Origin: a virus
DNA: 38,713 nt
Virus record (IMG/VR): IMGVR_UViG_3300030099_005701
Coordinates: 1-38,713 of that record
Strand: one strand, 5' to 3'
A program made the position numbers and the translations under genes. The notes under the pieces were generated by a model. It did not search any database and was not told where the DNA came from. It saw only the letters and a program-made list of their open reading frames with translations. The stretch's first letter is position 1, and the number at the start of each line of letters is the position of its first letter. Of this stretch, positions 18,876-35,520 are shown in pieces.

Positions 18876-19276
18876 AAATGGTCACCGCAGAAATTTGCGA
18901 GACCCTTTACGTATGCGATTGCCGCGACCGACCCCCCCCTCCCCCCTCCTCCTATACGCGCGCGAGCGCGCCCGGCCGCGCGCGGGATGGTGGTTGCCCT
19001 AGAGCCCGCGGGGCCACAATCCTGCCCCACCCCGGCCCGAATCTGCCCCTCATGAGGCAGGGGGGGTGGGTTACGTGGTCCACCGTAGACCACAACTAGG
19101 TGGTGGGGTCCGATAAGTATCTCCCCGTTGCTCTGGCTGCGATCGACCCGCGGATCCGGCCCGCCGGCGGATTGTGGCCGGCGTGATTGGCATGTCCGAT
19201 GCCACGACCCTCGTCGCCATCCTGCCCTTTTCTTTGAAGCCTCCGGTCAGATCTGCCGAGAGTACCCGTAGTGTGG

Positions 19277-19304
19277 TTGACACAGTGCCCGCACTATGTA
19301 CGAT
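19277..19304 (+). promoter_or_regulatory. Sigma70-like early promoter
   Basis: A consensus -35 TTGACA (19277-19282) is separated by 16 bases from TACGAT (19299-19304), a fair -10. Transcription would begin near 19311, so the leader would start with the GGCACC/GGTGCC hairpin (19314-19329) and carry the first TCACCTACCAA motif. This placement supports the ATG at 19369 as the first early gene start and argues against in-frame upstream codons. Confidence 0.6.
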
Positions 19305-19313
19305 CATGTGCAT

Positions 19314-19341
19314 GGCACCGGCGGGTGCCCTCACCTACCAA
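19314..19341 (+). promoter_or_regulatory. Leader hairpin plus TCACCTACCAA motif, copy 1
   Basis: A six-pair hairpin GGCACC-GGCG-GGTGCC (19314-19329) is followed one base later by TCACCTACCAA (19331-19341), 27 bases before the start codon of the first early gene. The 11-base motif recurs exactly at 19916 and 21327, each time downstream of a GC-rich hairpin. Its first six bases equal the TCACCT of the 16S rRNA anti-Shine-Dalgarno tail. A role in translation or mRNA processing is inference. Confidence 0.55.
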
Positions 19342-19368
19342 CGCCCCACGGGGCAGATCGGAACGAAC

Positions 19369-19842
19369 ATGACCAACAACGAATTCACTTCCCGGTACCT
19401 TCCCGCCTTCAACTTCAAGAGCGAGATCAACCGCGACCTCCTGATCTTCGCGATCAACGCGATGGTCACCGGCCCCTCGTGGAGTGGTGCCGGGATCAAC
19501 CTCAGCAAGGTGGTGACTTCGATCGTGGAGGAGACGCCGGGCTCGCACGTCACCCTGCGGGTGAGCGTGTGCATGAATGCGGACCACTCCAACGGTGGCA
19601 GCTGGACTGACTGGCTTATCACCGTGCCGACCATCGCCGGCCTGCAGAACGTTGGGGTCCGGCTCGACCCCGAAGAAGAATCTGAGAACGTGGTTCTTCA
19701 CTGGACCGAAATCGGGGCCTACATGCTCGACTTCGAGTTCAACTGGCGACGACAACCCGAGTTCATGGACGAGTCGGACCCTGTGGAGGATCTCGACAAG
19801 TCTGGTGATGATCCCGCGTGCGATGTCGAGGGGTGCTCCTGA
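19369..19842 (+). CDS. Acidic early protein of unknown function (157 aa)
   Basis: It is the first gene behind the 19277 promoter. The product is strongly acidic, especially the last 30 residues (FMDESDPVEDLDKSGDDPAC), by eye with far more Asp/Glu than Lys/Arg. The middle alternates strands and short helices (SHVTLRVSVCMNADHSNGGS, VVLHWTEIGAYMLDFEF). I do not recognise the family. Its place beside an ArdC-like gene and its charge make a DNA-mimic or other early anti-host protein possible. I chose the start downstream of the promoter; the frame is open back to 19174. Confidence 0.65.
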   Translation: MTNNEFTSRYLPAFNFKSEINRDLLIFAINAMVTGPSWSGAGINLSKVVTSIVEETPGSHVTLRVSVCMNADHSNGGSWTDWLITVPTIAGLQNVGVRLDPEEESENVVLHWTEIGAYMLDFEFNWRRQPEFMDESDPVEDLDKSGDDPACDVEGCS

Positions 19843-19939: not shown

Positions 19940-20872
19940 ATGAACCGCACTGACTACTTCGACACCGTCTACTCCGAACTCGCCGCCGCCGTCACCGACC
20001 CCGACCTGGCGGTGCAGTGGATCCGCCCGTGGGCGGCCGGCCAGCACTCCCGCGTCACCCCGCGATCCGTGGGAACCGGGAAGGCCTACCGCGGCATGAA
20101 CCGATGGTGGTTCGGGACGCGGTGCTACTCGTCTCCCTGGTGGCTCACCTTCCGTCAGGCGAAGAAGCTGGGGGGCAACGTCCGCAAGGGTGAGAAGTCC
20201 ACCGTGGGCATGTACTACCAGGTGGTCGAGAAGAAGGACGACGCCGGGAAGCGTGAGTGCTTCCCTATCTTCAAGACGTTCCGCGTCTTCAACGTTGAAC
20301 AGTGCGACCTGCCGCAAGAGGCCCTCGACCGTCTCGCCGAACGCCTCGATGCGATCTGCCCCGCCGATGCCGAACGCACCGCGCAGGAGGCGGTGACTGA
20401 GGCAGAGACCACCACCATCGGGTGGATCAAGGGCGAATCGATCGGGTTCGCTCACGGCGGGGACAAGGCGTACTACGCCCCGCTCACCGACTCAATCCAG
20501 ATGCCCGAGAAGACCGCGTTCGACTCGCCGGAGGCATACGCCCAGACCCTCGCCCACGAGGCGGTCCATGCCACCGGCCACAGCTCCCGTCTGGACCGCG
20601 GGCTGCTCAGGCCGGCCGCGTTCGGTGGTGACCGCTACGGTCGTGAGGAACTGGTCGCGGAGCTCGGCTCGTGCATGGTCCTCGGCTCGTGCGGGGTTGA
20701 CTTCGGCCGCGATCAGGCGGTGGCCTACCTCCGTGGCTGGCTGCGATCCTGCGTGAAGGCTGACGGGTCGAAGGACCCCGCCGCCTTGGCGTGGGCATCT
20801 GGCCGGGCTCAGGCCGCCGCCGACCTGATTCTCGGCGTCGAGGCCGACGCCGGCGACACCGACCCCGAATGA
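19940..20872 (+). CDS. ArdC-like antirestriction / ssDNA-binding zincin
   Basis: This 310-residue protein has the two-part ArdC plan. The N-terminal domain includes YRGMNRWWFG, SPWWLTFRQAKKLGGNVRKG and FRVFNVEQCD, the single-stranded DNA-binding region of ArdC/TraC-type proteins. The C-terminal zincin-like peptidase domain has HEAVHATGHSSRLDR with HEAVH at about 206-210 and the downstream acidic helix YGREELVAELGSCM. In plasmids, ArdC coats incoming single-stranded DNA and protects it from host nucleases and restriction. Here it is an early gene, fitting protection of newly injected or replicating phage DNA. The GGAG site six bases from ATG supports the start. Length and motifs agree well with the family. 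Confidence 0.88.
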   Translation: MNRTDYFDTVYSELAAAVTDPDLAVQWIRPWAAGQHSRVTPRSVGTGKAYRGMNRWWFGTRCYSSPWWLTFRQAKKLGGNVRKGEKSTVGMYYQVVEKKDDAGKRECFPIFKTFRVFNVEQCDLPQEALDRLAERLDAICPADAERTAQEAVTEAETTTIGWIKGESIGFAHGGDKAYYAPLTDSIQMPEKTAFDSPEAYAQTLAHEAVHATGHSSRLDRGLLRPAAFGGDRYGREELVAELGSCMVLGSCGVDFGRDQAVAYLRGWLRSCVKADGSKDPAALAWASGRAQAAADLILGVEADAGDTDPE

Positions 20873-21365: not shown

Positions 21366-21395
21366 TTGACAAAACAGGTACTTGAGAATTATTCT
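21366..21395 (+). promoter_or_regulatory. Promoter of the RHH-integrase module
   Basis: A consensus TTGACA (21366-21371) is followed by 18 bases and TATTCT (21390-21395), a moderate -10. The -10 lies inside the 17-base palindrome, so binding there would block RNA polymerase. Local A/T content is high compared with the surroundings. Confidence 0.6.
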
Positions 21396-21398
21396 CAA
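21382..21398. promoter_or_regulatory. Operator-like perfect palindrome
   Basis: TTGAGAAT, a central T, then ATTCTCAA form a perfect 17-base inverted repeat over the -10 region, 36 bases before the RHH gene. Dimeric RHH proteins bind such symmetric sites, so autoregulation of the RHH-integrase operon is the simplest reading. A host repressor could also use it. Confidence 0.65.
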
Positions 21399-21434: not shown

Positions 21435-21632
21435 ATGAGCGAACGTAAGTTCACCACAATTCAGATACCGCTCGAAAGCGGTGTCCTGGAAAGACTAAAA
21501 ACTTTCAGGGATTCTGTGGAAAAGCAGTCAGAAATACCCGGGGTAAAGGTTCCCCTCTACGCTGCCATTGACATCGCAGTCCGCGATGCCACCACAATCC
21601 GAAATCAGTCATCGAACGAAGGGAGCAACTGA
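21435..21632 (+). CDS. Ribbon-helix-helix DNA-binding protein (65 aa)
   Basis: The layout fits a ribbon-helix-helix regulator: a polar strand FTTIQIPLE near the N-terminus, helix 1 VLERLKTFRDSVEKQ, a turn with Pro and Gly, helix 2 LYAAIDIAVRDATTI and a short polar tail. A CAGGAG site lies 9 bases before ATG. The gene overlaps the integrase start by one base, so the two are co-translated. Such a small DNA binder next to an integrase may repress the operon through the palindrome at 21382 or act as a recombination directionality factor. The choice between these is open. Confidence 0.6.
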   Translation: MSERKFTTIQIPLESGVLERLKTFRDSVEKQSEIPGVKVPLYAAIDIAVRDATTIRNQSSNEGSN

Positions 21633-22774
21633 TGACGAACCTCACCTACCACATCGCGTCGAACGGAAAGTATTGGCAGGCCGCTTGGAGAGATTCCGCC
21701 GGCCGCCGAAAAAGGAAGAGCCTCGGACCAAAGGCGACCACGAGTCGCAAGCAAGCCGAGGAGATGCTTCAGCGAATCATCGCCGAGCATGCGAAGACCC
21801 CCGCGATGCGGGACGTTCCGAGGTCCGGACAGCTCGGACCTTGGATCGATCGGTACTTCGTAATTCGTGAGGACGAACTCGACTCAGCGACAACGGCGAT
21901 TCATCGTCGCACGTCGCGACTCCTGCTCGAGTTCTTCCCGGAGACTTGTCGAATCGACCAGATCTCGAAGGCATCCGCGACCGACTGGCGGATGTGGCTG
22001 CGTCGAAACAAGAAGCTCGGCGAGGCGACCGTTTGCAAGCATGTGCGTGTCGCCAAGGTCATGATGAACCGCGCCGTGTCTGAGGACATCGCTGCCGTTC
22101 ACCACTTTGGTCACCTCAAGGGCACCGCCCCACGGGTCCAGGTGTTTGACCGCGAGCTCGTCACCCTTGAGCTCATCGAACGTGTGGTTGCCGCGGCCGG
22201 CACGGAAGCCGCCGCGATGATCACGATCGGATACTTCACTGGCATGCGGACTAGTGAGATCCTCCATCTGCAGTGGGATCACATTGACATGGACCGAAAC
22301 GTGATCACCGTCGTGCCCCGCGGGAACGTGGAGACCACCAAGCAGAGGCTCCGAGAAGTTCGCATCGAGCCGGAACTGTGGGCTTGGCTCGCCGCTCGTG
22401 AGCGAGACACCGACACCGTGCTCGGCATGGTCGAGCGTGGACGTGTCAACCTGGCGGCTCGTCTGGTGAAGGAGGCGTGCGAGGCTGCCGGCGTGCAGCC
22501 GTTCACAATCCAGAAACTCAGACAGACGCGCGACACCCTGTGGCATTCCCGCTACCCGTCGCACGTCGCGTGTGCCTGGCTGGGCCATTCGGAAGCCACC
22601 GCACGCAAGCACTACCTCTCCGTGCCCGAGAGCATGTACAGCCACAGCGAGGCGACAAGCGACCGCCCCTCCCGTCCGCAAGCGGGGGGAGGGGCCGGTG
22701 TGAATGGGCCTAACAGGCCCGCAACGTCCTTGCCCGCGCAACTGAGGGTACTGCATCGAGGGGGTATCCAATGA
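21632..22774 (+). CDS. int: Tyrosine integrase
   Basis: This 380-residue site-specific recombinase has an N-terminal arm-binding-like beta region (GKYWQAAWRDSAGRRKRKSL), a helical core-binding domain (about 70-160) and a catalytic domain. Catalytic candidates are Arg206 in TGMRTSEI, Lys237 in ETTKQRL, Arg297 in QKLRQTRDT, His319 in WLGHSEATA and nucleophile Tyr328 in ARKHYLSV. The second box normally starts with His (HxxR) but here has Gln294. About 50 residues follow the Tyr; this tail is encoded by two hairpin-forming GC stretches and may overlap regulatory or attachment DNA. GGGAG six bases before ATG supports the start. It implies integration into a host chromosome. Confidence 0.9.
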   Translation: MTNLTYHIASNGKYWQAAWRDSAGRRKRKSLGPKATTSRKQAEEMLQRIIAEHAKTPAMRDVPRSGQLGPWIDRYFVIREDELDSATTAIHRRTSRLLLEFFPETCRIDQISKASATDWRMWLRRNKKLGEATVCKHVRVAKVMMNRAVSEDIAAVHHFGHLKGTAPRVQVFDRELVTLELIERVVAAAGTEAAAMITIGYFTGMRTSEILHLQWDHIDMDRNVITVVPRGNVETTKQRLREVRIEPELWAWLAARERDTDTVLGMVERGRVNLAARLVKEACEAAGVQPFTIQKLRQTRDTLWHSRYPSHVACAWLGHSEATARKHYLSVPESMYSHSEATSDRPSRPQAGGGAGVNGPNRPATSLPAQLRVLHRGGIQ

Positions 22775-22795: not shown

Positions 22796-22918
22796 CTGCG
22801 TTTGCACGCACTTGGAAAGCCACACGCCTCACAACCACAAAGCCACACCCAAACAGCATGCCCGTGGTGAGCCTCGGGCAGGGCGATTTCACCACCAACT
22901 TCTACGGAGATGACACCG

Positions 22919-23854
22919 ATGACGCAACTAGCGACGACCGAGACACCACCACCCGCACCCATCGTCGAGGGCTCGATGCACCTGGCCGACGTGCTGGAAG
23001 CCCGGGCACACCTCACCCCGCAGGACCGGATCAAGCAGAACGAGGAGCTCGTTCGCATCCTGGCTCCGGAGGTTCAGAGGGAGCACCTGATGAGGGTCCA
23101 GGGGAAGGACTACATGTGCGTGGGCGGTGGCATCGCTATAGCTAACGGCATGGGGTTCTCGATCTCCTGCTCCGAGGTCACGTTCAACAAAGACCTCGGC
23201 GTGTACTCGGCGATCGCCACCATGACCGACGGGGTGATCACCGCCGAGGCGATCGGCTACGTCGGGGATGACGAGCGGAAGTGGACGGGCGGACCCAAGT
23301 TCGCCCTGATGAGCATGACCCAAACCAGGGCGATCGCGAAGCTGTGCCGCGCCAACTTCGGTCACCTTTACACCCTGCTCGGGGCGGCCTCGGCCACGCC
23401 GGCGGAGGAGATGTCCGCGGTGCCGATGGTCCATGCATCTAGTGAATCATCTCCCTCCCAGGGGGGCGGTGGTAAGTCAAGCCCCGCCCCCCTTCAGGTG
23501 GAGAAAAAGCAGCCCGTGGCTGTGCCGGGAAGTTCCGGGTCAGCGATCACCAAGATCGAGATCGGGGTGGAAGTTCCCAAGCGTGCCGGCGGCACGATGA
23601 AGAAGAACTTCATCACCCTGGCCGACAGCACCGTGGTGGAGTGCTTCTCGAACAAGAAGACCGACGAGATCTTCAACACGATCGGCGAGAAAGATGCTGC
23701 AGGACTGCAGGTCGAACTGGTCTACGACACCAAGACGTTTGGCAAGAAGACCGTCCACGACTTCAAGGACTACAAGCTCTACGACGCCGACGCCAGGATC
23801 GATGGAGCACCACCAGCGGACGACGTAATCGACGCGGGCGACATTCCATTCTGA
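22919..23854 (+). CDS. Annealing-protein-like recombination protein with SSB-like tail
   Basis: The first 170 residues resemble phage recombination or annealing proteins: GGGIAIANGMGF, a strand-rich IATMTDGVITAEAIGYVG, then MSMTQTRAIAKLCRANFGHL and TPAEEM, a pattern shared with RecT/Rad52/ERF-like families. A Ser/Gly/Pro linker (about 175-210) leads to a basic beta-rich domain (AITKIEIGVEVPKRAGGTMK) that could be an OB fold. The last residues, DVIDAGDIPF, match the acidic DIPF tip by which bacterial SSB recruits replication and repair proteins. I prefer the ATG at 22919, nine bases after GGAG; the ATG at 22910 is too close. It is probably the single-strand binding and annealing protein of this phage. 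Confidence 0.6.
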   Translation: MTQLATTETPPPAPIVEGSMHLADVLEARAHLTPQDRIKQNEELVRILAPEVQREHLMRVQGKDYMCVGGGIAIANGMGFSISCSEVTFNKDLGVYSAIATMTDGVITAEAIGYVGDDERKWTGGPKFALMSMTQTRAIAKLCRANFGHLYTLLGAASATPAEEMSAVPMVHASSESSPSQGGGGKSSPAPLQVEKKQPVAVPGSSGSAITKIEIGVEVPKRAGGTMKKNFITLADSTVVECFSNKKTDEIFNTIGEKDAAGLQVELVYDTKTFGKKTVHDFKDYKLYDADARIDGAPPADDVIDAGDIPF

Positions 23855-23865
23855 AAGGTTGAAGC

Positions 23866-24381
23866 ATGCCAACTATTTACGACATACAAGGCGAATGGGC
23901 AACTCTCGTTGATCTGCTTACCGAGAGTGGCGGCGACATCAGCGACCCGGAGGTCGCAAAGTACATCGACCAGTGCTTCGCCGAGATTGCTAACGATTTG
24001 GAGGCCAAGGTCGATGGATATCTTCGCGTGATTGCCGAGCTCAAGGCACGCGCTGATGTGAGGAAGACGGAGGCTGACCGGCTTGCCCGTCGGGCCCGTC
24101 TCGACCGGCAATCGGTTGACTGGATGAAGGAGCGACTAATTTCCACTCTGACTTCGATGGGGAAGACCGACTTCGAGACGGAGCACTACAAGGTCAAGGT
24201 CTCCAACGTTGGAGGGGTGCGGGGGATGGAGATCGACGATGGCCCCCTGCCGCCTGACTTCACGATCTATCAAACCGTCGAGGAACCGAACAAGGAATTG
24301 ATTCGGAATCGTCTCGAAGCCGGGGAGGACCTCCCGTTCGCCCGACTCCGCGAACGGTCAAAGAGACTGGTGGTGTCCTGA
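23866..24381 (+). CDS. Siphovirus Gp157-like protein
   Basis: This 171-residue protein has the Gp157 pattern: an N-terminal helix with acidic residues, a long coiled coil (LEAKVDGYLRVIAELKARAD, then ADRLARRARLDRQSVDWMK), LISTLTSMGKTDFETEHYKV, and a C-terminal strand region ending in Arg-rich helices. In other phages the family is linked to resistance or recombination loci and commonly lies beside annealing or SSB genes, as here. The molecular role is not established. Confidence 0.75.
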   Translation: MPTIYDIQGEWATLVDLLTESGGDISDPEVAKYIDQCFAEIANDLEAKVDGYLRVIAELKARADVRKTEADRLARRARLDRQSVDWMKERLISTLTSMGKTDFETEHYKVKVSNVGGVRGMEIDDGPLPPDFTIYQTVEEPNKELIRNRLEAGEDLPFARLRERSKRLVVS

Positions 24382-24382
24382 C

Positions 24383-25072
24383 ATGAACACCATCGAAGTC
24401 ACGGATGACTTCCACCGTCTGAACAAAGTGGTTAAGGAGGGCATGGCGACGTTCGTCGAAGTCGGCAAGGCTCTCGCTCAGATCCGGGAAGGCAAGCTGT
24501 ACAGGGAAGCGGGCTACAAGAGCTTCGAGGAGTACAGCCAGGTAGAACTAGGAATACCGGGGCGAAAGTCCCGACGGATGATTACGGCTGCCCAGGTCAA
24601 GGACCTGCCGCCGGGCGTGTCGCTGCGCACAGCCGAGGCGATTGGCCGGGTGCCGGAGAACATCCGGGACGAGGTGGTCGAGCGTGCTGTTGATCGCCAG
24701 GGGCCGGCACCGACCACAAGCATGATCGAGGACATGCGGGAGGAGGTCGAGGCCGAGCTCGCACCACCCGCTCCACCGCCGTCGGTTGAACATCGGATGG
24801 CGGCGGCACAGGACAAGTTCAGAGATGTCTATCGCCTGCTGCAACAGGCGAGGGAGGCGGCACAGCAGCTGGGCAACCACGACGGTGGCGCACTGCTCGA
24901 TGTCGATGCGTGCGTCGTTCACCTGAACAACGCGATGGAAGAGGTCAAGTTCGCGGTGCCCAAGTATCGCTGCCCCTATTGTGGAGGTGAAGGATGTCAG
25001 CAATGCCGCTTCTCTGGGATGTTGTCCCAGAAGCTGTACGAGCTCGTCCCGATCGAGTTGAGACCGGAGTGA
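24383..25072 (+). CDS. HTH/ParB-like protein with C-terminal zinc motif
   Basis: This 229-residue protein starts with helical HRLNKVVKEGMATFVEVGKA and GKLYREAGYKSFEEYSQ, as in phage and plasmid proteins related to ParB or KorB helical domains. A helix-turn-helix-like stretch (PGRKSRRMITAAQVKDL) and an Ala/Pro linker (about 128-135) follow. The C-terminus carries CPYCGGEGCQQC, a DnaJ-like zinc knuckle with two Cys-x2-Cys pairs. It lies in the replication operon and overlaps the helicase start by GTGA. It probably binds DNA and may load or localise the helicase; no catalytic motif is visible. Confidence 0.55.
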   Translation: MNTIEVTDDFHRLNKVVKEGMATFVEVGKALAQIREGKLYREAGYKSFEEYSQVELGIPGRKSRRMITAAQVKDLPPGVSLRTAEAIGRVPENIRDEVVERAVDRQGPAPTTSMIEDMREEVEAELAPPAPPPSVEHRMAAAQDKFRDVYRLLQQAREAAQQLGNHDGGALLDVDACVVHLNNAMEEVKFAVPKYRCPYCGGEGCQQCRFSGMLSQKLYELVPIELRPE

Positions 25073-26694
25073 AGCTGCGACCGAAACAGGTCGAGCAGCG
25101 AAACGCGGTCGAAGACAAGTGGGCCGAGGGTCATCGATCTGTGCTGATGGTCTCGCCCACCGGGACAGGCAAGACCGTCGTGCTCGCGGACATCGTGGCG
25201 AACCAGCGGTTCAAGCGAACCCTGGTCATCGCTCACCGCGAGGAGCTGATCACCCAGCTCGAGGTCGCCCTTCGCCGGGTCGGATGCGACGTTGGTGTTG
25301 AGATGGCCGAGCGGACCGCACGCACCCGTGGGTTTGTTGAGCCCCAGGTTGTCGTCGCGTCGGTGCAGACCCTCGTCGCCGGCGACTGCAACCGGCTGAA
25401 GTCGCTGGTTGACAAGCCAGATCGGTGGGGCCTGACCGTCATCGACGAGGCACACCACGCGATTGCCGACAGCTACCGGATCGTGCTCGAGCACATGCAA
25501 CAGAACGTCCAACATCGCGTACTCGGCGTCACCGCCACCCCCGATCGAACCGACCGCCTAGCCATGGGTGCCGTGTTCGAGGCGGTGGCGCACGAGTACG
25601 CCATCGGTGAAGCAATTGAGGACGGCTACCTCGTGCCCATCAAGCAGCGAGCGATCATGGTCGAGTCACTTGACTACTCGAAATGCCGCACGACGGCCGG
25701 CGATCTCAATGGCCGGGATCTGGCCCGGGTGATGGAGCTCGAACGTAACCTGCACGCAATCGCCGAGCCCACCATGGAGCTGGCCGGCAACCGCAAGGCC
25801 GTCGTGTTCTGTGCCTCGGTGGATCAAGCCCGGCGGATCACCGAGATCTTCAATCGAGCCAAACCACACTCCGCCAGGTTCGTCGAAGGCAACACACCGA
25901 AGGATGAACGCCGGCAGATCTTCCGAGAGTTTGATCGCGGAGACTTCCAGTTCCTTTGCAACTGCATGATCGCGACTGAGGGATGGGACTGCCCGTCGTG
26001 CGAAGTCGTCGTCCTCGGGCGACCCACGAAATCCAGATCCCTGTTCGTTCAATGCGTCGGTCGCGGCACCCGACCTCTACCTGGCGTCGTTGATGCAGCG
26101 ACTGACGCCAGCGAGAGGCGGGCCGCGATCGCCGCGAGCGACAAGACACACTGCGAGATCTTTGACTTCGTCGGCAACTCTGGTCGCCACAAGTTGGTCA
26201 ACATCTTTGACGTACTGGGTGGTGAGCACCCCGGCCCGATCCTCCGGCGAGCCCAGCAGATCGCAGCCGAATCTGATGAAGCGGTAGACATCGACGAGGC
26301 GATCGAACTTGCCCGAGAACAGGAGCGGGCGGAACAAGAGAAGCTCGAGCTCGAGGCGCAGGCCAAGCGGGCCAGGCTGCGGGCCAAGGTCAAGCATTCC
26401 TCTCGCATGTTCAACCCGTTCGACGTGCTCGACATCGCACCTCCGAAGCAGACCAAAGGCGAAGCAGCGAGCGACAAGCAGGTCGCTCTGCTGGCGAAGT
26501 TCAAGATTGACGCGACCGAGATGAGCAAGGCCGAGGCGTCACGCCTGACCCGCGAGGTGTTCCGCCGAATGAACGCCGGCTACTGCACGGTTGCCCAAGC
26601 ACGGATCCTGAAGGAGCACGGTTACTCGACTGAGGTCTCGGTTGCCGAGGCCAGCAAGATTATTGACGGCATCTTTAAGAGGGGGCGACGATGA
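25069..26694 (+). CDS. DEAD/DEAH-type superfamily 2 helicase
   Basis: This 541-residue enzyme has the full SF2 motif set: Walker A SPTGTGKT, IAHREELI (Ia), DEAHH (II), TATPDR (III), ATEGWDCPS (V) and QCVGRGTRP (VI). The C-terminal extension contains SDKQVALLAKFKI and TVAQARILKEHGY, a small helical repeat also seen in other phage helicases of this type. I start at GTG 25069, which overlaps the previous stop. An ATG at 24994 with a good GGAGGTGA site would add 25 residues but overlap the upstream gene by 79 bases. It probably remodels recombination or replication intermediates, or opens an origin. Confidence 0.9.
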   Translation: MKLRPKQVEQRNAVEDKWAEGHRSVLMVSPTGTGKTVVLADIVANQRFKRTLVIAHREELITQLEVALRRVGCDVGVEMAERTARTRGFVEPQVVVASVQTLVAGDCNRLKSLVDKPDRWGLTVIDEAHHAIADSYRIVLEHMQQNVQHRVLGVTATPDRTDRLAMGAVFEAVAHEYAIGEAIEDGYLVPIKQRAIMVESLDYSKCRTTAGDLNGRDLARVMELERNLHAIAEPTMELAGNRKAVVFCASVDQARRITEIFNRAKPHSARFVEGNTPKDERRQIFREFDRGDFQFLCNCMIATEGWDCPSCEVVVLGRPTKSRSLFVQCVGRGTRPLPGVVDAATDASERRAAIAASDKTHCEIFDFVGNSGRHKLVNIFDVLGGEHPGPILRRAQQIAAESDEAVDIDEAIELAREQERAEQEKLELEAQAKRARLRAKVKHSSRMFNPFDVLDIAPPKQTKGEAASDKQVALLAKFKIDATEMSKAEASRLTREVFRRMNAGYCTVAQARILKEHGYSTEVSVAEASKIIDGIFKRGRR

Positions 26695-26957
26695 ACTGGA
26701 CCGAGTATGCGGAAGGTGCTGTGACTCTTGAGGGCCTGGACGACGCCATCATTGGCATCGGCCGTCAGTGGGGCAGCAAACCGTGCATGATCTACAGCGT
26801 TAAGAAGATCATCGACATCCTCGTGAAACGCGATGAGATGAACCCAGATGATGCACTGGAATACTACGAGTTCAACATCATGCAGCTCTACGCTGGCGAG
26901 CAGACCCCGGTGATGATGGAAGGCGTAGTGAGGGAGGTGAGCGATGGGGTGGAATAG
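26691..26957 (+). CDS. Small conserved-looking phage protein (88 aa)
   Basis: It overlaps the helicase stop (ATGA) and the primase start. The sequence LDDAIIGIGRQWGSKPCMIY followed by IDILVKRDEMNPDDALEYYE and FNIMQLYAGEQTPVMM matches a pattern of small replication-region proteins in many phages. No function is known to me. Tight coupling to helicase and primase suggests a replication accessory role. Confidence 0.65.
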   Translation: MNWTEYAEGAVTLEGLDDAIIGIGRQWGSKPCMIYSVKKIIDILVKRDEMNPDDALEYYEFNIMQLYAGEQTPVMMEGVVREVSDGVE

Positions 26958-27798
26958 ATGCACACGGAACAAACCGTGTCACATCTGCGGCAAGCCCGAC
27001 TGGTGCTGCTTCACTCACGATGGCGCAGCTCGATGCATGCGGATCCAGGACGCACCCGACGGCTGGTACATCTGCAAGGTCGATGACCAGGGCGGCACCA
27101 CGTTCCGCCCCGGTGACGGACCTCGCAAGGCAGCCGCACCACGACCCAAGATCGAACCGCCGAAGGTGATCAAGACCAAGAACTGGGGCCGCATCCAACT
27201 GCAGCTACGTTCTGCTCTGGTCACCGATCACACCGACATCCACGCGGAGGGGCTGGGCGTTTCGTCATTGGCGCTCCACCGACTGGGCATTGGGTGGCAC
27301 GAGCAGTGGAGGTGCTGGACGTTTCCGATGTATCAACCGACGGGCGAGATCGTCGGCATGCGGTGCCGAGGCGAGGACGGGAAGAAGTGGGCGATCCCCG
27401 GATCGAGCGATGGCCTGTTCCTGGACAGCGACATTGCCGTGCCCGAGGAGGTCTTCATCTGCGAGGGCCCGACCGACACCGCCGCCCTCATGGACGTGGG
27501 TTTCTACGCCGTTGGGAGACCGAGCTGTCGCGGGGCGGTGATCGCGACCAAGGCCCTCGCGCGAGGCAGACGGGTGGTCATTGTCAGCGACAGCGACGGC
27601 CCGGGGCGAGAAGGTGCCGAGCACTTGGCGTCCAACCTGCTCGGCATGTGCAGAAGCGTGAAGGTAATCGAGCCACCGTGCAAGGACATGCGCGAGTGGA
27701 AGCAAAGGGGCACCTCGCCAGAGGCGGTGAGGATGCTTGTGGATCATGCCAAGGAGCGGCGATATGCAGCGCAACAAGTACAAAGTCGCGCCAGTTGA
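26944..27798 (+). CDS. Toprim primase with zinc ribbon
   Basis: This 284-residue protein has an N-terminal zinc-binding region (CHICGKPDWCCFTHDGAARC), a middle segment (FPMYQPTGEIVGMRCR) and a Toprim domain with VFICEGPTDTAALMDVGF (Glu motif) and VIVSDSDGPGREGA (DxD motif). This is a T7 gp4/DnaG-like primase lacking the hexameric helicase domain that T7 gp4 carries. A GGGAGGTGA site just upstream fixes the start. It should make RNA primers for lagging strands; which polymerase extends them is unclear, because none is encoded in the window. Confidence 0.85.
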   Translation: MGWNRCTRNKPCHICGKPDWCCFTHDGAARCMRIQDAPDGWYICKVDDQGGTTFRPGDGPRKAAAPRPKIEPPKVIKTKNWGRIQLQLRSALVTDHTDIHAEGLGVSSLALHRLGIGWHEQWRCWTFPMYQPTGEIVGMRCRGEDGKKWAIPGSSDGLFLDSDIAVPEEVFICEGPTDTAALMDVGFYAVGRPSCRGAVIATKALARGRRVVIVSDSDGPGREGAEHLASNLLGMCRSVKVIEPPCKDMREWKQRGTSPEAVRMLVDHAKERRYAAQQVQSRAS

Positions 27799-28120
27799 GG
27801 AGCGTCGTGCTCTTGGTCGAACCTTCGCATCGAAGGCTGAGAAGGAGTACGCCTTGATGCTCGAGGACTGGGTGGAGATCGGGATCATCCAGGACTATGT
27901 CTGTCAGCCCAAGGTCTGGCTTGGGTGCCACGAGTACACCTACACCCCAGACTTTCTGGTGATCCCCGATGGTGCCGGGCCGCACTACGTTGATGTCAAA
28001 GGGATGGAGACGACCTCGTTCAAGAGGACGAAGAAACTGTGGTCCGCTCACGGAAGGCTACCCCTGCACGTCGTGAAAAAGAGAGGCAAGAAGTTTGAAA
28101 CGTCCGAGGTGCTGCCGTGA
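27764..28120 (+). CDS. DUF1064-type nuclease
   Basis: This 118-residue protein has the pattern of DUF1064 phage endonucleases: FASKAEKEYALMLEDWVEIG, IIQDYVCQP, YTPDFLVIPD (the PD motif) and HYVDVKGMETTSFKRTKKLW (the D/ExK motif). These conserved acidic and Lys residues form a PD-(D/E)XK active site. Proteins of this type are probably Holliday-junction or branch-specific nucleases in phage replication modules. The ATG at 27764, with an AAGGAG site 8 bases upstream, is the best start; it overlaps the primase end by 35 bases. Confidence 0.8.
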   Translation: MQRNKYKVAPVEERRALGRTFASKAEKEYALMLEDWVEIGIIQDYVCQPKVWLGCHEYTYTPDFLVIPDGAGPHYVDVKGMETTSFKRTKKLWSAHGRLPLHVVKKRGKKFETSEVLP

Positions 28121-30519
28121 GAATGACTGTTGGCAGTGTGCTGCACGACACCAAGATGGCCGAGCAAATCGAGCTCGAGATCGAAGCGATTCAACTGGGC
28201 GTCAAGCGTTACCGCCGGCTGGCCGAGGACGCCGAGAAGCGTGGCGATGCCGCTGCCCTCAAGCCCACGGAGAGACTGCTGGTCTATTGGTTTCCGCTCC
28301 TGCGTGACGCGATCCTTGCGGAGCAGGACGAGATCCTTGCTGGCAAGCCTGGCCCAGGCCGGTCGATAGGCGGGCCGCTGGTGGCGGCATGCCCGGCGGA
28401 CGCGGCAGCGGTTATCACCATGCACACGATGTTAGGCAGAACGGTGTCGCACAACACCGGCGACCTAGTGCTCAAGTGCGCGTACGCCGTGGGGTCGGCT
28501 GTGGTAGCGGAGCTCCATGCCCAGCAGATTCGGGACAACGACGCCGCAGATTGGAACGCTCTGGACAATCGGTTCCGCCGGCTCACTGCTGCTAGGGTGA
28601 ACGCCTGGGCGAAGAAGTCTTTGAGCGATCACCTGTGGAAGAGGAAAGCATGCGTGGCTGCTGGGTCAACTTTGATGGAGCTGGCTCGCAAAGTGTGCCT
28701 TCTCAAGAACGATGAGGACGAATACGAACCCGTCTTCCTGCACGAGCAGCAGTGGCGTGACCGCAAGCGTAAGGGGTGCATTCGCCTGAGTGATCTGGCG
28801 TTCCGCAAGATCGAGGACGGTCACCTGTTCCGGCAGCATCTCCGGCCACGGTTCCTGCCGATGGTGTTTCCCCCGTTCAGTTGGAGCGAGACAGAAGATG
28901 GCGGCTACATCAAAGTCAGAACGCCTTTGATCTCGAAGCCAGCGAACGAACAGATTCGTGCGTTCAAGGAGTCGAAGACCGAGCACGTCTTCGAGGCACT
29001 GAACTCAATGTCCAAGGTGGGATGGAAGATCAACCCGCGAGTCCTGCAGGTTGCCGAGCATATCTGGGAAGAAGGGGGTGGGGTTGGCACGCTCCCCAAG
29101 GCTGACCTCATCCCCCTTCCTGATAGGCCGGCAGACATCGACTACAACGAAGTCGCCAAGAAAGCCTGGAAGTCAGAGGCACATGAGGTGCATGGTGCCA
29201 ACGCCAAGTTGCGGGGGGCGCGTGTTGAGTTCCTTCAGAAGATTTCCCTTGCGAAGCGGTTTGTCAACGAGCCGACGATCTACTTTCCGCATCAGTTTGA
29301 CTTCCGGACGAGGCTGTATCCGGTTCCAGTCCACCTCAATCACCACGGGGACGACTTGTCCAGAGGGCTGCTGATGTTCTCTAAGCCAGTGCCGCTCACC
29401 GACAGGGCACGGTGGTGGCTGAAGGTCCACGCTGCCAACTGCTACGGGTTTGACAAGGCGGACTTCGCCGGCCGCGTGGCCTTCGTCGAGGACATGAAGC
29501 ACGAGATTGCCGCGGTCGGCAGGAACCCCATTGATCAGATTCCGTTCTGGACCAAGGCCGACGAGCCGTTCCAGTTTCTGGCGGCATGCTTCGCTCTCTG
29601 CGATGACACCTTGGCGGAGCACCTGCCGTGTCAAATCGATGGCACCTGCAACGGAAGCCAGCACCTCTGTGCCGCGATGCTCGATGACGTGGGCGGACGG
29701 TGGGTCAACCTACTGCCTGGCGATCACCCCGAGGATGCATACCGCCGCGTCATGCTCAGGGTCCAAGACCGTCTGCGAAACATGGACGACCCCATGGCCG
29801 CGATGGTCGAGCCGTTTGTGAAGCGGAAGACGATCAAGCAGCCGGTCATGACCTCGAATTACAACGTCACTCGTATCGGGGCTAGGGACCAGATCAAGCA
29901 GCGGCTGAAGGAGCTGGACTTTCCAAAGGACCACCTTCGGGCAGCATCGATGTTCCTGGCGAACGAGACCCTCGCCTCCATCGGCGACACCTTCCCGGGG
30001 CCCCAGCTCCTCATGCGGTGGATCGAGGAATGCACCAAGGGGATCTGCGCGAAGTACCCGATGCATGGCCTCGAGTGGACCACGCCCCTGGGGGTCCGAT
30101 GCGTCCAGCCCTACCGGCGGATCTCGACCGTGGAGGTCCGGACAATCATGCAGCGGGTTGTTCTCGGGCACCGCCGTGAAGACGTGCCGGTGGCGAAGGG
30201 GAAGCAACGACAAGGTGGGCCGCCAAACATTGTTCACAGCTGGGACGGTTGCCATGAGATGTCCGTCGCTACCGCCATGGACGAAGATGACATGGACTTC
30301 GCCGGCGTTCACGACGCATACTGGGCCCATGCCGCCAACATGGATCGCTTGGCCTACCACACCAGAGACCAATTCGTGTCGATGCACCAGATGGAGCTGG
30401 TCGATGGTCTGGCTCGTGAGTGGGCGGAGAACTTTCCCAAAGCCCCGATCCCCGATCCGCCGCCGATGGGCCAGCTGGACCTCAGCAAGGTGATGGACAG
30501 TGACTACTTTTTCAGTTGA
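28117..30519 (+). CDS. Single-subunit DNA-directed RNA polymerase (T7-like)
   Basis: This 800-residue polymerase (T7: 883) has the T7 catalytic signatures. IDGTCNGSQH contains Asp508 (T7 Asp537), KQPVMTSNYNV has Lys574 and Tyr582 (T7 Lys631 and Tyr639), and GVHDAYWAHA holds Asp733 (T7 Asp812). WVNLLPG and a short hydrophobic C-terminal end (DYFFS) also match. GTG 28117 overlaps the preceding stop; the ATG at 28123 is an alternative. It should transcribe late genes from phage-specific promoters. It lies just before the structural genes, as in phiKMV rather than T7, implying late activation. Confidence 0.95.
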   Translation: MRMTVGSVLHDTKMAEQIELEIEAIQLGVKRYRRLAEDAEKRGDAAALKPTERLLVYWFPLLRDAILAEQDEILAGKPGPGRSIGGPLVAACPADAAAVITMHTMLGRTVSHNTGDLVLKCAYAVGSAVVAELHAQQIRDNDAADWNALDNRFRRLTAARVNAWAKKSLSDHLWKRKACVAAGSTLMELARKVCLLKNDEDEYEPVFLHEQQWRDRKRKGCIRLSDLAFRKIEDGHLFRQHLRPRFLPMVFPPFSWSETEDGGYIKVRTPLISKPANEQIRAFKESKTEHVFEALNSMSKVGWKINPRVLQVAEHIWEEGGGVGTLPKADLIPLPDRPADIDYNEVAKKAWKSEAHEVHGANAKLRGARVEFLQKISLAKRFVNEPTIYFPHQFDFRTRLYPVPVHLNHHGDDLSRGLLMFSKPVPLTDRARWWLKVHAANCYGFDKADFAGRVAFVEDMKHEIAAVGRNPIDQIPFWTKADEPFQFLAACFALCDDTLAEHLPCQIDGTCNGSQHLCAAMLDDVGGRWVNLLPGDHPEDAYRRVMLRVQDRLRNMDDPMAAMVEPFVKRKTIKQPVMTSNYNVTRIGARDQIKQRLKELDFPKDHLRAASMFLANETLASIGDTFPGPQLLMRWIEECTKGICAKYPMHGLEWTTPLGVRCVQPYRRISTVEVRTIMQRVVLGHRREDVPVAKGKQRQGGPPNIVHSWDGCHEMSVATAMDEDDMDFAGVHDAYWAHAANMDRLAYHTRDQFVSMHQMELVDGLAREWAENFPKAPIPDPPPMGQLDLSKVMDSDYFFS

Positions 30520-31090
30520 CGGGGACAATGGAAGCTACCTCAAGGTCTACTTTGCCGAGGGCCCGACCCTTTCCAAATGGGTCAAACGGCTGGGCTGGAG
30601 CTGGTTCCGCCGGCACCCGCTCACCCTCTGGGAAATGCTCGGGTCCGAGGTGATCGCCAAGGCCTGGGGCACCCGGTGTAGGCATGTCCTGCTGGAGCAT
30701 GGTGGCGGTGTCCTGGACTACCAATTCTGCCGAATCCAGTACTACCCGCTGGACTCGTTCCTCCAGGGCTACCCCGGGGTGATCGGACACTTTCGTGTAC
30801 CACAGGCTGACTCTGTGGATCTGACAGAAAAACTTCCAGATCGGTCACATTTTCTTCAGGCTTTTCTGACGAGCCTGCACTACTACGCGATGTTTCTAAG
30901 CTGTGGGCTGTATCAGCCAAGGACGTGCGTCTCAGTCGCCTCTGAGGCCCTGAGCAAATGTGGGGTCCAGACCCCCCGATCTGTCTGGAGCCCGCCACGG
31001 CTCGCCTGGTGGCTTCTGGAGCAAGGCTATGAGTGGATACCCGAGAACCCTGCCGACGATGTCCGCGGACCTGGTCGAGCAGATGCATGA
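30500..31090 (+). CDS. Putative permuted papain-fold (YiiX/NlpC-like) hydrolase
   Basis: The 196-residue frame starts at GTG 30500, inside the end of the polymerase gene. Two blocks suggest a circularly permuted papain-like fold. The first is TRCRHVLLEHGGGVLDYQF followed by PLDSFLQGYPGVIGHFRV, with His62 in the usual His-before-Gly context. The second is RTCVSVASEALSKCGV, with Cys143 at the start of a helix, then SPPRLAWWLL. This order (His, then Cys) is that of YiiX-type NlpC/P60 relatives. In phages such enzymes can cut cell wall or modify proteins. Since no other lysin is visible, it is a candidate for lysis or entry. The fold call is pattern-based and tentative. Confidence 0.45.
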   Translation: MTTFSVDGDNGSYLKVYFAEGPTLSKWVKRLGWSWFRRHPLTLWEMLGSEVIAKAWGTRCRHVLLEHGGGVLDYQFCRIQYYPLDSFLQGYPGVIGHFRVPQADSVDLTEKLPDRSHFLQAFLTSLHYYAMFLSCGLYQPRTCVSVASEALSKCGVQTPRSVWSPPRLAWWLLEQGYEWIPENPADDVRGPGRADA

Positions 31091-31225: not shown

Positions 31226-31399
31226 ATGGGTGCGCCCTCAATCCCGACCCCCCCACCGCCGCCGCCGCCGCCGGAGCGAGAGGAAAAGGCTGAGTTTTCC
31301 GTAGAGGATGAGAACAGAAAGAAGAACCAAGGCACCGTCACTGGCATGCGTGTGCGGACTGACGCGGCGGGAGCTGGGACGAACGTTCCCGGGCAGTGA
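31226..31399 (+). CDS. Small Pro-rich protein preceding the portal (57 aa)
   Basis: A 57-codon frame fills the gap before the portal gene and its stop overlaps the portal ATG. The product starts MGAPSIPT followed by eight Pro, then a charged linker (EREEKAEFSVEDENRKKNQG) and a C-terminal TVTGMRVRT segment. Short Pro-rich proteins with a similar end sit just before the portal gene in other marine T7-like phages. AAAGGAG lies nine bases upstream of the ATG. Its function is unknown; a virion accessory role is likely from position. Confidence 0.7.
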   Translation: MGAPSIPTPPPPPPPPEREEKAEFSVEDENRKKNQGTVTGMRVRTDAAGAGTNVPGQ

Positions 31400-32994
31400 T
31401 GAGGGAAGGCCGAATCGCTGAGGCTTTTGGCGCTGAGGACAGCCTCCGCACCGAATCGCTCGAGTCAGCCCGCCATTGTGCCGCGCTATCGAAACCTCAC
31501 ATCCTGCCTCCTGAGGGGTGGGACGAAGGCGAGAGCCTGCCGCAGACGTTCTCTGCCCTGGCTAGCCGAGGAATCACCAACCTTGAAGGGCGTCTGCTCC
31601 TGGCTCTCTTCCCGGTCGGCCAAGCGTTCTTCAAGTTGAAGCCGGCGGCGAAATTCAAGTACGACCCCGATATCAACTCGGAGCTTCTCCAGGAGTTTGA
31701 GAACAAGCTGGCAATACACGAGATGGTCATGCTTGCGAAGATCGAGCAGGATGACCATGGCGGCAGCAACGCCCGCCGGGCGGGCTTCAGGTCCCGGATG
31801 CGGACGGCGATATCTCAGTTGCTGGTCACTGGTGATGTGCTGATCCAGATGACCGACGCCTATCAAATCCGGGTCCACCGTCGCGACAACTATGTGCAGC
31901 GGCGAGACACCGGCGGCGACGTGCTGTACATGATCACTCGCGAGCAGATTGATCCGCTCTCGATGGCCCCGGAGATGCTGGAGATCTCGCATCCCGATCC
32001 CGAGGCCCTGCACGAAATGTCGGTGTACGACCGGATGACCGAGTTGTACACCCGAATCGATTGGAACCCTGTCACCAAGACGTGGGTCATCACCCAAGAA
32101 TGCAATGGGCAGCAGATCGTCGAGTCCGAGGAAAAGGTGACACCGTACTTCACGATCCCGTACTCGCTGCCGCCGGGCGGCCAATACGGTCGCGGCATTA
32201 TCGAAGACAACCTTGGCGATGTCCGATCCATGAACGAGCTCACCGAACGGTTGCTCGACTTTGCCGCGATTTCCTCTAAGCATCTGTTCGCCCTGGACTA
32301 CTCCTCACAAGTCAGACCACAAGACCTAACTCTTCCTACCGGCTCAGTGATACAAGCGAAGGTCCAGGGCGGGCAGGTGTCTGACGTTGGAATTCTGCGG
32401 ACGGATCGAGCCGGCGACTTCAACGTTGTACAGACGGTTCGCGAGTCGCTTCGCCGAGACCTTTCCGCAGCCATGCTCATGGAGGCCGAGCAGCTGCCGA
32501 CATACGAGCGAGCAAGCCGACTGCATGTTGAGCGGGTTGCCATGGAACTCGAGGGTGCCCTCGGTGGCGTGTACGCCCCGATCGCCGACGCGCTGCAGAT
32601 CCCGCTGGTCGAGCGACTCATGCATCTCCTCGAACGCGACGGAACTCTGCCACCGCTGCCAGACGACACGGTCGAGGTCGAGGCAGTCACTGGCATTTCG
32701 GCTCTGTCCCGAGAGGGCGATCAGCAGAAGTTGATGCAGCTGCTGCAGAGCCTGTCTCAGATGGGGCCGGACATGCTCGGCAGAATCGACCGCGGCCTCC
32801 TGTTGGAAATCATGGTCAGGCACAGCGGAGTCTACGAGCCCGGTCTCGTGAAGTCGGACGAACAAGTCCAGGAAGAACAAGCTGCCGCAGCACAGCAGCA
32901 GCAACAGCAGATGTTGGCCGAGCAACTCACTGCCGCCGGCGGGCAGATGGTTCAGCAGGCCGCATCGCAATCAATGGAGGCCATGAATGGCTGA
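31399..32994 (+). CDS. Portal / head-tail connector (T7 gp8-like)
   Basis: This 531-residue protein is nearly the size of T7 gp8 (536). Family-like features are the N-terminal ESARHCAALSKPHILPPEGW, the region NLEGRLLLALFPVGQAFFKL, the strand-rich wing around VTKTWVITQE and the stem-helix region YGRGIIEDNLGDVRSMNEL. A Gln-rich low-complexity C-terminus (AAAAQQQQQQMLAEQ) follows. In the capsid it forms the dodecameric ring for DNA entry and exit. GTG 31396 lies in frame directly upstream; ATG 31399 overlaps the previous stop and is the likely start. Confidence 0.93.
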   Translation: MREGRIAEAFGAEDSLRTESLESARHCAALSKPHILPPEGWDEGESLPQTFSALASRGITNLEGRLLLALFPVGQAFFKLKPAAKFKYDPDINSELLQEFENKLAIHEMVMLAKIEQDDHGGSNARRAGFRSRMRTAISQLLVTGDVLIQMTDAYQIRVHRRDNYVQRRDTGGDVLYMITREQIDPLSMAPEMLEISHPDPEALHEMSVYDRMTELYTRIDWNPVTKTWVITQECNGQQIVESEEKVTPYFTIPYSLPPGGQYGRGIIEDNLGDVRSMNELTERLLDFAAISSKHLFALDYSSQVRPQDLTLPTGSVIQAKVQGGQVSDVGILRTDRAGDFNVVQTVRESLRRDLSAAMLMEAEQLPTYERASRLHVERVAMELEGALGGVYAPIADALQIPLVERLMHLLERDGTLPPLPDDTVEVEAVTGISALSREGDQQKLMQLLQSLSQMGPDMLGRIDRGLLLEIMVRHSGVYEPGLVKSDEQVQEEQAAAAQQQQQQMLAEQLTAAGGQMVQQAASQSMEAMNG

Positions 32995-34323: not shown

Positions 34324-35520
34324 ATGACTCTCAATCTTCCCTCTGGAGCAGGAAATGCTCCCTCGGGGTTCGAGGTGCCGTTCGGTGCTACTCGTACCCT
34401 CTCCAAGGAGTTCAACGCCGACACTCGCGGCATGGCACTCGATGTGTTCTCGGGGACCGTCCTCGAGCAGTTCTACGACCAGTCGGTCTTCTACGACCGA
34501 CAGAACCAGTTCATCTCGACGAAGATCCTCAACGGCGGACACGTCGCTAAGTGGCCGATCATCGGCGACGACCTCGATCTGTTCAACTCGCTCAACGCCG
34601 ACGTTTCTGGTGGTGGGGGCGACTTCCAGGACGCAGCTGATGTCGGTGCCGAAGGCGGAATCACCGCCGGCTATCACACCCCCGGTGACTTCATCACCGG
34701 CCGTAAGGTCAAGCTGAGTGAAAAGACCGTTCGCTGCGACGACGTTCTCGTTGCACCGATTGACGTTCCCTTTGCTGACCTTGACCTTAGTTTCTTCGAC
34801 GTGCTGACGCCGTTCGCGGCCAAGCTGGCTCGTTCTCTCGCCCAGGATCTGGATCGCAAGATTGCGACACAGGTCGCTCGTGCAGCCGACGAGTCTGGCG
34901 TGACTGGCGTTTATCCTGGTGGACAGAAGGTCACCCGAGAAGTCTCAGGTGGAGCCGCGATCAGCAGCTTCTTCGCTGATAGCACCAACGGCGCAGACGC
35001 CTTCCGCGATGATTGCGCTGCGCTCGCGCAGCAGTTTGATGAAGACAACGTGCCCGAGGAAGGCAGGTTCCTTTTTATCCCGCCTTATATCAGGCGGATC
35101 CTGCGGAATGAGAAGGACATCTTCGATCGTGACTTCAACAACGCCTCGGTCGTCGGTTCCATGAACGAGCGTGCTATTGGCCTGCTCGAAGGGTTCCAGC
35201 TCATCGTCACCAAGAACATTCCTGGTAACTGGGCAACCACGACCAACGGACGTTACGGATTCATTGACAGCAACCTTGCGAAGTACGACTTCGATCATCC
35301 CCTTGGAAGCACCAACGACACCCGCCCTGCTGCGCTGGCTCTGACCAACGCTGCTTCCGGCGTGGCCGGAGTTGGCATGGTGCAGGCCGCTGGCATTCGC
35401 ACCCACATCGAGGACGATGAAAGGCGCGAGGTCAAGTTCATGAAGGCCCGCATGCATGTCGGTCTTGACACTCTTGCACCTTGGTGTGCCGGCATGATCG
35501 AGATGAAGCGTACCGCCTAA
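34324..35520 (+). CDS. Major capsid protein (T7 gp10-like, HK97 fold)
   Basis: This 398-residue protein lies after the scaffold with a GGAGGAG site just upstream. The N-terminal region has LDVFSGTVLEQFYDQSVFYD and FISTKILNGGHVAKWPIIGD, the strand-turn pattern of T7-like capsid proteins. Later parts include AKLARSLAQDLDRKIATQVA, the long spine-like helix, and FLFIPPYIRRILRNEKDIFD. T7 gp10A is 344 residues, so this one is somewhat longer. Regular codon use suggests high expression. No frameshifted longer form is evident at the 3' end. Confidence 0.92.
   Translation: MTLNLPSGAGNAPSGFEVPFGATRTLSKEFNADTRGMALDVFSGTVLEQFYDQSVFYDRQNQFISTKILNGGHVAKWPIIGDDLDLFNSLNADVSGGGGDFQDAADVGAEGGITAGYHTPGDFITGRKVKLSEKTVRCDDVLVAPIDVPFADLDLSFFDVLTPFAAKLARSLAQDLDRKIATQVARAADESGVTGVYPGGQKVTREVSGGAAISSFFADSTNGADAFRDDCAALAQQFDEDNVPEEGRFLFIPPYIRRILRNEKDIFDRDFNNASVVGSMNERAIGLLEGFQLIVTKNIPGNWATTTNGRYGFIDSNLAKYDFDHPLGSTNDTRPAALALTNAASGVAGVGMVQAAGIRTHIEDDERREVKFMKARMHVGLDTLAPWCAGMIEMKRTA

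Follow-up and report, generated by a model that had tools for sequence, protein, structure and literature searches.

The window analyzed here is the whole of IMG/VR record IMGVR_UViG_3300030099_005701 (38,713 nt), a closed phage genome of approximately 38.24 kb. Its terminal 470 bases match the initial 470 at 95.3%, free of gaps, and joining the ends restores a single 201-aa tail tubular gene followed by the next tail gene, the same arrangement as in the uncultured relatives G010, G006 and G027. Since 20 of the 22 mismatches in the overlap sit at third codon positions, we read them as strain variants. The main features are as follows, with family matches in brackets.

1174–3564, + strand: T7 gp12-like nozzle protein (PF25675, 1.5e-98)
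6128–13798, + strand: gp16-like internal virion protein, 2556 aa (phrog_6651, 1.3e-41)
15587–17251, + strand: T7-type large terminase (PF22530, 7.2e-29)
21632–22774, + strand: tyrosine integrase (PF00589, 3.9e-11; phrog_1, 3.8e-31)
22910–23854, + strand: annealing protein, SSAP (phrog_19042, 1.6e-24; no Pfam match)
23866–24381, + strand: Gp157, Mu Gam-like DNA end protection family (PF05565, 8.2e-30; phrog_253, 2.6e-26)
24383–25072, + strand: Zn/HTH protein with an HTH-like N-terminus and a C-terminal zinc knuckle (sequence CPYCGGEGCQQC)
24994–26694, + strand: RadD-like SF2 helicase (PF04851/PF00271; phrog_16, 1.5e-87)
26691–26957, + strand: conserved 88-aa protein (phrog_13182, 4e-21), also in G004, G006 and G028
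26944–27798, + strand: Zn-ribbon and Toprim primase without a helicase domain, 284 aa (phrog_239, 4e-17; Toprim Pfam matches below the cut-off)
27737–28120, + strand: DUF1064 PD-(D/E)XK nuclease, Holliday-junction-resolvase family (PF06356, 6.8e-7; phrog_190, 7.9e-18)
28117–30519, + strand: single-subunit T7-type RNA polymerase, RNAP (PF00940, 7.6e-108; phrog_414, 4e-176)
30500–31090, + strand: small conserved protein between RNAP and portal (no Pfam family; same-slot homologs in 17 of the 25 clade records compared)
31396–32994, + strand: T7-type portal, or head-tail connector (PF12236, 1.1e-35), starting 877 bp past RNAP
34324–35520, + strand: Gp10A-like major capsid protein (PF21703, 1.7e-14)
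38166–38713, + strand: start of tail tubular protein A, continuing at 1–528 over the circle junction (470-bp overlap)

The T7-type portal, capsid, tail tube and nozzle, internal virion proteins and terminase are all present, and the large terminase matches 2585 phage records (tblastn). The gp16-like protein matches internal virion families only, with no polymerase domain and no PDB match; stretches of it, as well as 19174–19842 and 30500–31090, match no family. Judging from its genes, the phage is T7-type in virion and RNAP only and not a typical member of the Autographiviridae/Autographivirales, and its integrase gene suggests a temperate T7-like podophage. Two genome scans with RNAP patterns found no prophage copy in 84,980 genomes. 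Neither the integrase nor an ArdC-type gene at 19940–20872 had been mentioned in the original prediction.

The replication block that this prediction had described (annealing protein, Gp157, Zn/HTH protein, SF2 helicase, Toprim protein, DUF1064 nuclease and RNAP) was confirmed in full at 22910–30519. The closest solved relative of the helicase is Escherichia coli RadD (7.7e-48, 27% identity; runner-up, 1.1e-27). The Zn/HTH protein, which matched no Pfam family, is encoded immediately ahead of the helicase also in G004, G006, G010, G028 and G040, and we infer that it is a candidate origin or DNA-binding factor. In the place of a large replicative primase-helicase of the D5/RepA type, which is missing in the window, there is the 284-aa Toprim protein, with no DnaB_C part in profile searches, no tblastn match in 50,697 phage records and no solved relative found by sequence. 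Its Zn motif, CxxCGKPDWC, might point to a planctomycete host, a reading that was dropped. No exonuclease was found in the block by Pfam or phrog matches.

The absence of a family A or other DNA polymerase (DNAP) and of a DnaB/gp4 helicase was likewise borne out for the families tested. A Pfam hmmscan of the 30 window proteins, the profile search that had been proposed, found no polymerase besides the RNAP, and six-frame searches of the whole record with PF00476 (Pol A), PF03796 (DnaB_C), PF07733 (Pol III alpha) and PF00136 (Pol B) gave no match, whereas their positive controls did. PF03175 had no match in the window, but its control was also silent and the search shows little; PF08706 was silent in the siphophages compared as well, which left this search without a useful control. 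No DnaB loader or replication origin was identified in the window, and DnaA boxes were fewer than expected, with no excess. A diverged or unknown polymerase, either a primase-polymerase or part of a family-less protein, might copy the genome, given the family-less proteins that remain (19174–19842, 30500–31090 and parts of gp16) and a Toprim protein without solved relatives. However, no large family-less replication protein exists, the 196-aa and 222-aa family-less proteins are small for a replicative DNAP, gp16 has only virion matches and the DNAP profiles are empty, and we consider this alternative improbable. The premise that a polymerase gene is the norm in T7-like phages holds as a rule, but a cultured exception was already known in the MPP-C cyanopodoviruses, T7-like phages devoid of a DNAP that retain gp4 (PMC9860041).

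The nearest cultured RNAPs, at about 29–30% identity, are from temperate T7-like phages. Phages LUZ100, RHEph01, RHEph21 and Lo5R7ANS share with the window the integrase, RNAP, T7 virion and terminase, but in all of them the interval from RNAP to portal encodes a family A DNAP and a primase-helicase, whereas in the window these are missing and the gap measures 877 bp. An RNAP-based scan recovered 29 uncultured relatives (RNAP identity 31–48%), which form a single clade (SH-aLRT 99). PF00476 exceeded the cut-off in none of the 29 clade records versus 11 of 13 outgroup records, the two negative ones being fragments of 18 and 29 kb; a sub-threshold Pol A match in G027, a 45-residue motif within a 119-aa ORF, was left uncounted. 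Likewise, DnaB_C was absent from the 19 clade records searched, versus its presence in 11 of 11 outgroup records and in both MPP-C phages. RNAP and portal are separated by 0.76–1.46 kb in 25 clade records, versus 10.9 kb in LUZ100, 12.4 kb in RHEph01, both with their replication genes in that interval, and 4.0 kb in P-SCSP1a. The order of the gene kit is conserved among divergent relatives, and G010, with the same kit, has an exact terminal repeat of 77 bp. Two relatives contain pieces of a host replisome: DnaA domain IV in G014 and, by sequence, a clamp-loader-like protein in G023.

The original prediction had also suggested a recombination-driven, host-replisome-dependent mode of replication. 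Dependence on a host polymerase is the best reading: the families tested gave no DNAP in the window or its clade, no segment is missing, and the gene set resembles that of temperate phages that lack a replicative polymerase of their own; that replication is recombination-driven is plausible but unproven. Host polymerase I, rather than Pol III, could extend the annealed ends, an option that has been raised for the MPP-C phages (PMC9860041), and the replaced DNAP is of family A; nevertheless, Pol I serves mainly in repair (PMC9860041) and the DnaA domain IV and clamp-loader-like protein of the relatives are partners of host Pol III, which makes this option quite improbable.

An assembly that misses a DNAP/gp4 segment, or a chimeric contig, is largely refuted and in our estimation has very little chance of being correct. 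The contig is metagenomic, with 22 differing sites in its end overlap and no host-linked copy; however, the end differences are mostly third-position strain variants, the junction gene is intact, and the replication block is contiguous in G004, G010 and G028, and partly so in G002, G006, G020 and G025, which bears out the completeness of the closed circular unit. Additionally, the interval from RNAP to portal, where T7 has its DNAP, is closed in 25 of 25 relatives compared, and the absence of the gene is not an assembly gap because the 29 relatives likewise contain no family A DNAP above the cut-off.

T7 residues D537, K631, Y639, H784, H811 and D812, of which Y639 and H784 select rNTPs in T7, are conserved in the window RNAP and in all clade RNAPs. 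Because every catalytic and rNTP-selecting residue checked is kept, the protein appears not to be a disguised DNAP. Double use of the RNAP as a DNA polymerase could be argued from the palm fold common to T7 RNAP and family A DNAP, from a related dual-use family that was proposed (TV-Pol; PMC2579912) and from YN in the window at T7 Y639-G640, but the conserved residues, and YN also in P-SSP2, from a DNAP-bearing cyanophage group, render it highly improbable. An GGGACACCTCC pair ahead of the capsid gene was rejected as an RNAP promoter motif, the motif search being no better than chance.

The MPP-C phages (Prochlorococcus phages P-SCSP1 and P-SCSP2; Cai et al., 2022; PMC9860041) resemble the window in their T7-like virion, RNAP and missing DNAP, and P-SCSP2 shares the presence of an integrase as well. 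They retain the gp4 primase-helicase, an exonuclease and the T7-type genome order, whereas the window lineage is devoid of gp4 and carries the SSAP, Gp157, RadD-like, Toprim and DUF1064 genes upstream of RNAP; their proteins in the SSB position end in EF or DF, while the window annealing protein ends in DIPF. A single RNAP clade of both lineages was rejected (p-AU 0.009), with long branches in the tree, and the host-dependent kit was apparently acquired independently of MPP-C. DNAP-less T7-like phages with gp4 were already known, and new here is a lineage without gp4 as well, which would be overlooked with DNAP marker genes, common for counting T7-like phages.

The window agrees with a pattern of siphophage modules, in which a phrog_16 SF2 helicase lies alongside an SSAP and a resolvase-type nuclease. 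The temperate Firmicutes siphophages BCJA1c and Javan173 have a helicase of the same family (33–35% identity to that of the window), near an annealing protein (Sak4-like in BCJA1c) and upstream of a resolvase. They differ in having a large primase or RepA-type helicase in the place of the small Toprim protein, and in showing no annotated T7-type RNAP over the stretch read; in BCJA1c, moreover, the annotation assigns a 218-aa gene to a DNA polymerase.

We consider it likely that a temperate T7-like lineage kept the T7 virion, packaging and RNAP while its T7 replisome (DNAP, gp4, gp2.5, gp3 and gp6) gave way to a siphophage-like kit that cooperates with the replisome of the host. T7 itself pairs transcription with replication, its RNAP adjoining the phage replisome; the T7-type RNAP and virion would then be separable from this replisome and joinable to a host-dependent kit. 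After infection or induction, the genome would circularize, or the Gp157/Gam-like protein would protect its ends, and host DNA polymerase III would copy it. Opening and priming, at origins or at recombination forks, may fall to the Zn/HTH protein, the RadD-like helicase and the Toprim primase, and the annealing protein would pair single strands into branched forks and concatemers, which the DUF1064 nuclease would resolve. With its SSB-type C-terminal tip, the annealing protein would dock partners that bind such tips, either chi, PriA or RecO of the host or the RadD-like helicase of the phage. The phage proteins would restart forks and form concatemers alongside Pol III. The RNAP would transcribe the late virion genes, which begin directly behind it. 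Replication could still start in theta mode from an origin, because annealing proteins, in temperate phages of this polymerase-less kind, serve in replication as well as concatemer formation (PMC5499656); temperate staphylococcal phages need the annealing proteins Sak and Sak4, with their SSBs, for replication (PMC5499656).

The annealing protein is predicted to consist of a RecT/ERF-like N-terminal domain and an OB-like C-terminal domain. A single-sequence AlphaFold model was useless, and one from seven sequences reached modest confidence (mean pLDDT 54; core, 70–80), with Foldseek BFVD matches to RecT, ERF, SAK3 and Rad52; the OB-like domain (pLDDT 45–65) had weak PDB OB matches. By sequence, there is an acidic tail with a D/E-I-P-F-type tip, the protein ending in an SSB-type acidic DAGDIPF. 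A close search with one sequence found no homologs in viral contigs, and a two-sequence profile found six loci. In relatives, the annealing slot is held by unrelated proteins: RecT, the AAA_24/Sak4 type, ERF-like (by sequence) and, in G020, a canonical SSB. SSB-type tips occur in this slot in G000, G002, G006, G014, G020, G025, G028, G039 and G040, and are missing in G004, G010 and G012. The tip is no proof of host-polymerase recruitment, because the DNAP-bearing RHEph01 and RHEph21 have SSB-type tips too. E. coli RadD binds the SSB C-terminal tip (PMC10238739); its tip-pocket residues Arg21 and Arg49 are not retained in the window helicase, where position 145 is basic, and the tip-binding arginines are partly conserved across phage helicases.

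A bolder and rather doubtful possibility is that the annealing protein is a fusion acting as both SSAP and SSB, whose tip would bring both the replisome of the host (chi, PriA) and the RadD-like helicase of the phage directly onto annealed joints, so that recombination, rather than an origin, would load the host polymerase. If true, an annealing-loaded, host-polymerase mode of replication would be coupled to a phage RNAP. Both T7-type replication without an own polymerase and host-replisome recruitment by an annealing protein with an SSB-type tip become testable in this lineage.

The last 470 bases of the contig (38,713 bases, an IMG/VR virus record) overlap the first 470 with 95.3% identity and no gaps; 20 of the 22 mismatches lie at third codon positions and only two residues change. 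Joining the ends restores an intact tail tubular protein A of 201 aa, with the next tail gene directly after it across the junction, as in the related viral contigs G010, G006, and G027. The window is therefore a closed unit of ca. 38,243 bp, confirming that the circular unit is complete. All its major genes are on the + strand, including a T7-type virion and packaging set (portal PF12236, capsid Gp10A, nozzle, Tube, T7_gp14, a gp16-like internal protein, DNA_Packaging_2, and T7 terminase). The gp16-like protein (6128–13798; 2556 aa) is about twice the size of that from T7, with family matches mainly in its C-terminal part. Between the small and large terminase genes there is a metallophosphoesterase-like gene (14201–15217; phrog_7339, DNA repair exonuclease), 63% identical to its counterpart in G027, and positions 19940–20872 contain an anti-restriction type gene, with an ArdC N-terminal domain and a zincin-like domain, also present in G010 and in the viral record G039.

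Family matches located in the window the replication block named in the original prediction. The gene order here is Int, annealing protein, Gp157, Zn/HTH protein, SF2 helicase, an 88-aa protein, Toprim, and DUF1064, followed by the T7-type RNA polymerase (RNAP), the 30500 protein, and the portal. Just upstream of this block is the integrase, which argues that the phage is probably temperate:

21632–22774, + strand, tyrosine integrase

Pfam scans of 30 window proteins revealed no polymerase besides the RNAP, and six-frame searches covering the whole record gave no match to the Pol A, Pol B, Pol III alpha, or DnaB_C profiles, while the positive controls were detected; the predicted lack of a DNA polymerase (DNAP) and of a DnaB/gp4 helicase was thus borne out. 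The RNAP is intact and keeps the T7 residues D537, K631, Y639, H784, H811, and D812, and so is expected to be a conventional RNA polymerase. Separately, a 119-aa ORF from G027 (L166, contig 28881–29240) contains a short Pol A motif B-like stretch, below the family cut-off and possibly a relic or due to chance.

Relatives were gathered with an RNAP profile built from four sequences (A1), which was run against viral contigs; they were selected by their RNAP (31–48% identity) and not by the absence of DNAP. A tree of 38 RNAPs placed 22 members of the group in one clade (SH-aLRT 99), separate from LUZ100, RHEph, T7, HTVC019P, P-SSP2, and the MPP-C cyanopodoviruses, with phiKMV beside it on a long branch. 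None of the 29 clade records, many of them fragments, passed the PF00476 cut-off. The strongest DNAP-less cases are G010 (40,955 bp, with an exact terminal repeat of 77 bp), G028, G004, G020, G025, G006, and G002, where the replication genes are contiguous with the RNAP; the absence is weaker for G019, G023, G012, and G014, whose contigs end in or near the block. Gene position is a separate line of evidence: T7-like phages have the DNAP between the RNAP and the portal, and these two genes lie 10.9 kb apart in LUZ100 and 12.4 kb apart in RHEph01, but only 0.76–1.46 kb apart in 25 clade records, too close for a DNAP to fit. The unassigned protein at 30500–31090, which presumably resembles NlpC/P60-type hydrolases, is conserved directly after the RNAP in much of the clade (24–32% identity).

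The combination of a T7-like phage with RNAP and no DNAP is already known from the MPP-C isolates, whose authors suggested copying by one of two host enzymes (Pol I or Pol III) or by an unknown polymerase (Cai et al., 2022; PMC9860041). The deposited MPP-C genomes contain RNAP, gp4, and exonuclease, plus an integrase in P-SCSP2, and PF00476 was absent from them. The window clade, unlike these, is also without gp4, and its replication genes form an annealing/RadD-like/Toprim kit. The RNAP data rejected a single clade uniting both lineages (p-AU 0.009, with long branches). What appears to be new is a separate, deep and apparently uncultured clade that has also lost gp4 and carries this kit; we found no earlier description in the open-access literature searched, although an unpublished or subscription-only account is possible.

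The window annealing protein (22910–23854, + strand) belongs to phrog_19042. Its predicted model (seven sequences; core pLDDT 70–80) matched BFVD entries at E 2e-4 to 4e-3, among them RecT, ERF, SAK3, and Rad52 proteins, and its C-terminal part weakly resembles an OB fold. The protein ends in DAGDIPF, an SSB-type acidic tip; its orthologs end in EEIPF, EELPF, or DELPL, and other proteins in the same slot in ADEEIPF, EEEVPF, SEIPF, or DDGIPF; G020 has there a canonical SSB ending in DDDDIPF. The viral records G041 and G042 have a related N-terminal domain without the C-terminal domain or the tip, and DUF1064 is the only other window gene that they match. As a caveat, such tips also occur in the SSBs of the DNAP-bearing phages RHEph01 and RHEph21 (DDDIPF/DEEIPL), whereas the corresponding ends are DF in LUZ100, Lo5R7ANS, HTVC019P, and P-SSP2. 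The slot is occupied by RecT in G004 and by a Sak4-type AAA_24 protein in G002, and the DNAP-less G012 (L146–L147) has by sequence a RecT-like gene, an exonuclease, and RusA on the strand opposite to the RNAP. These differing families argue that, as judged from sequence, the annealing function is kept while the protein family is exchanged. The opposite-strand genes of G012 also include a RecF-like ATPase and RNase H.

The gene order of the kit was found again in relatives. The SF2 helicase is present in 12 of the 29 clade records versus none of 13 outgroup records, as well as in G039 and G040, and its closest solved relative is RadD (7.7e-48; next best, 1.1e-27). Among cultured phages, the nearest helicase comes from Firmicutes siphophages, in which it adjoins an annealing protein and a resolvase. 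Neither the Toprim nor the annealing protein had tblastn matches among 50,697 phage records.

The recombination-driven, host-replisome-dependent mode put forward in the original prediction is partly supported: the gene content and order, the absence of DNAP and gp4, and the intact RNAP stand, and we infer that host Pol III would copy the phage genome. The annealing protein, end protection, helicase, primase, and nuclease would make and restart forks and form concatemers, and the RNAP would drive the late genes. Two relatives encode pieces that may bear on host replisomes: a stand-alone DnaA domain IV mini-protein just upstream of the phage RNAP in G014 (L148, 4590–4910; 5.9e-20), and a clamp-loader-like AAA+ protein beside the integrase in the DNAP-less G023 (L157, 3887–4597). 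In staphylococcal temperate phages, replication and concatemers require Sak or Sak4 with their SSBs (PMC5499656).

The early region also contains a near-perfect palindrome, TTGAGAATTATTCTCAA (21366–21398; 0.01 expected by chance), overlapping a sigma-70-like promoter, with a 65-aa ORF and the integrase downstream. We take it to be Fur-box-like, and it hints that the lysogeny switch may be linked to iron or controlled by a repressor. Additionally, a CTCACCTACCA-like 16-mer has four copies in this region (19330, 19915, 21326, and 21641), two of them shortly upstream of gene starts.
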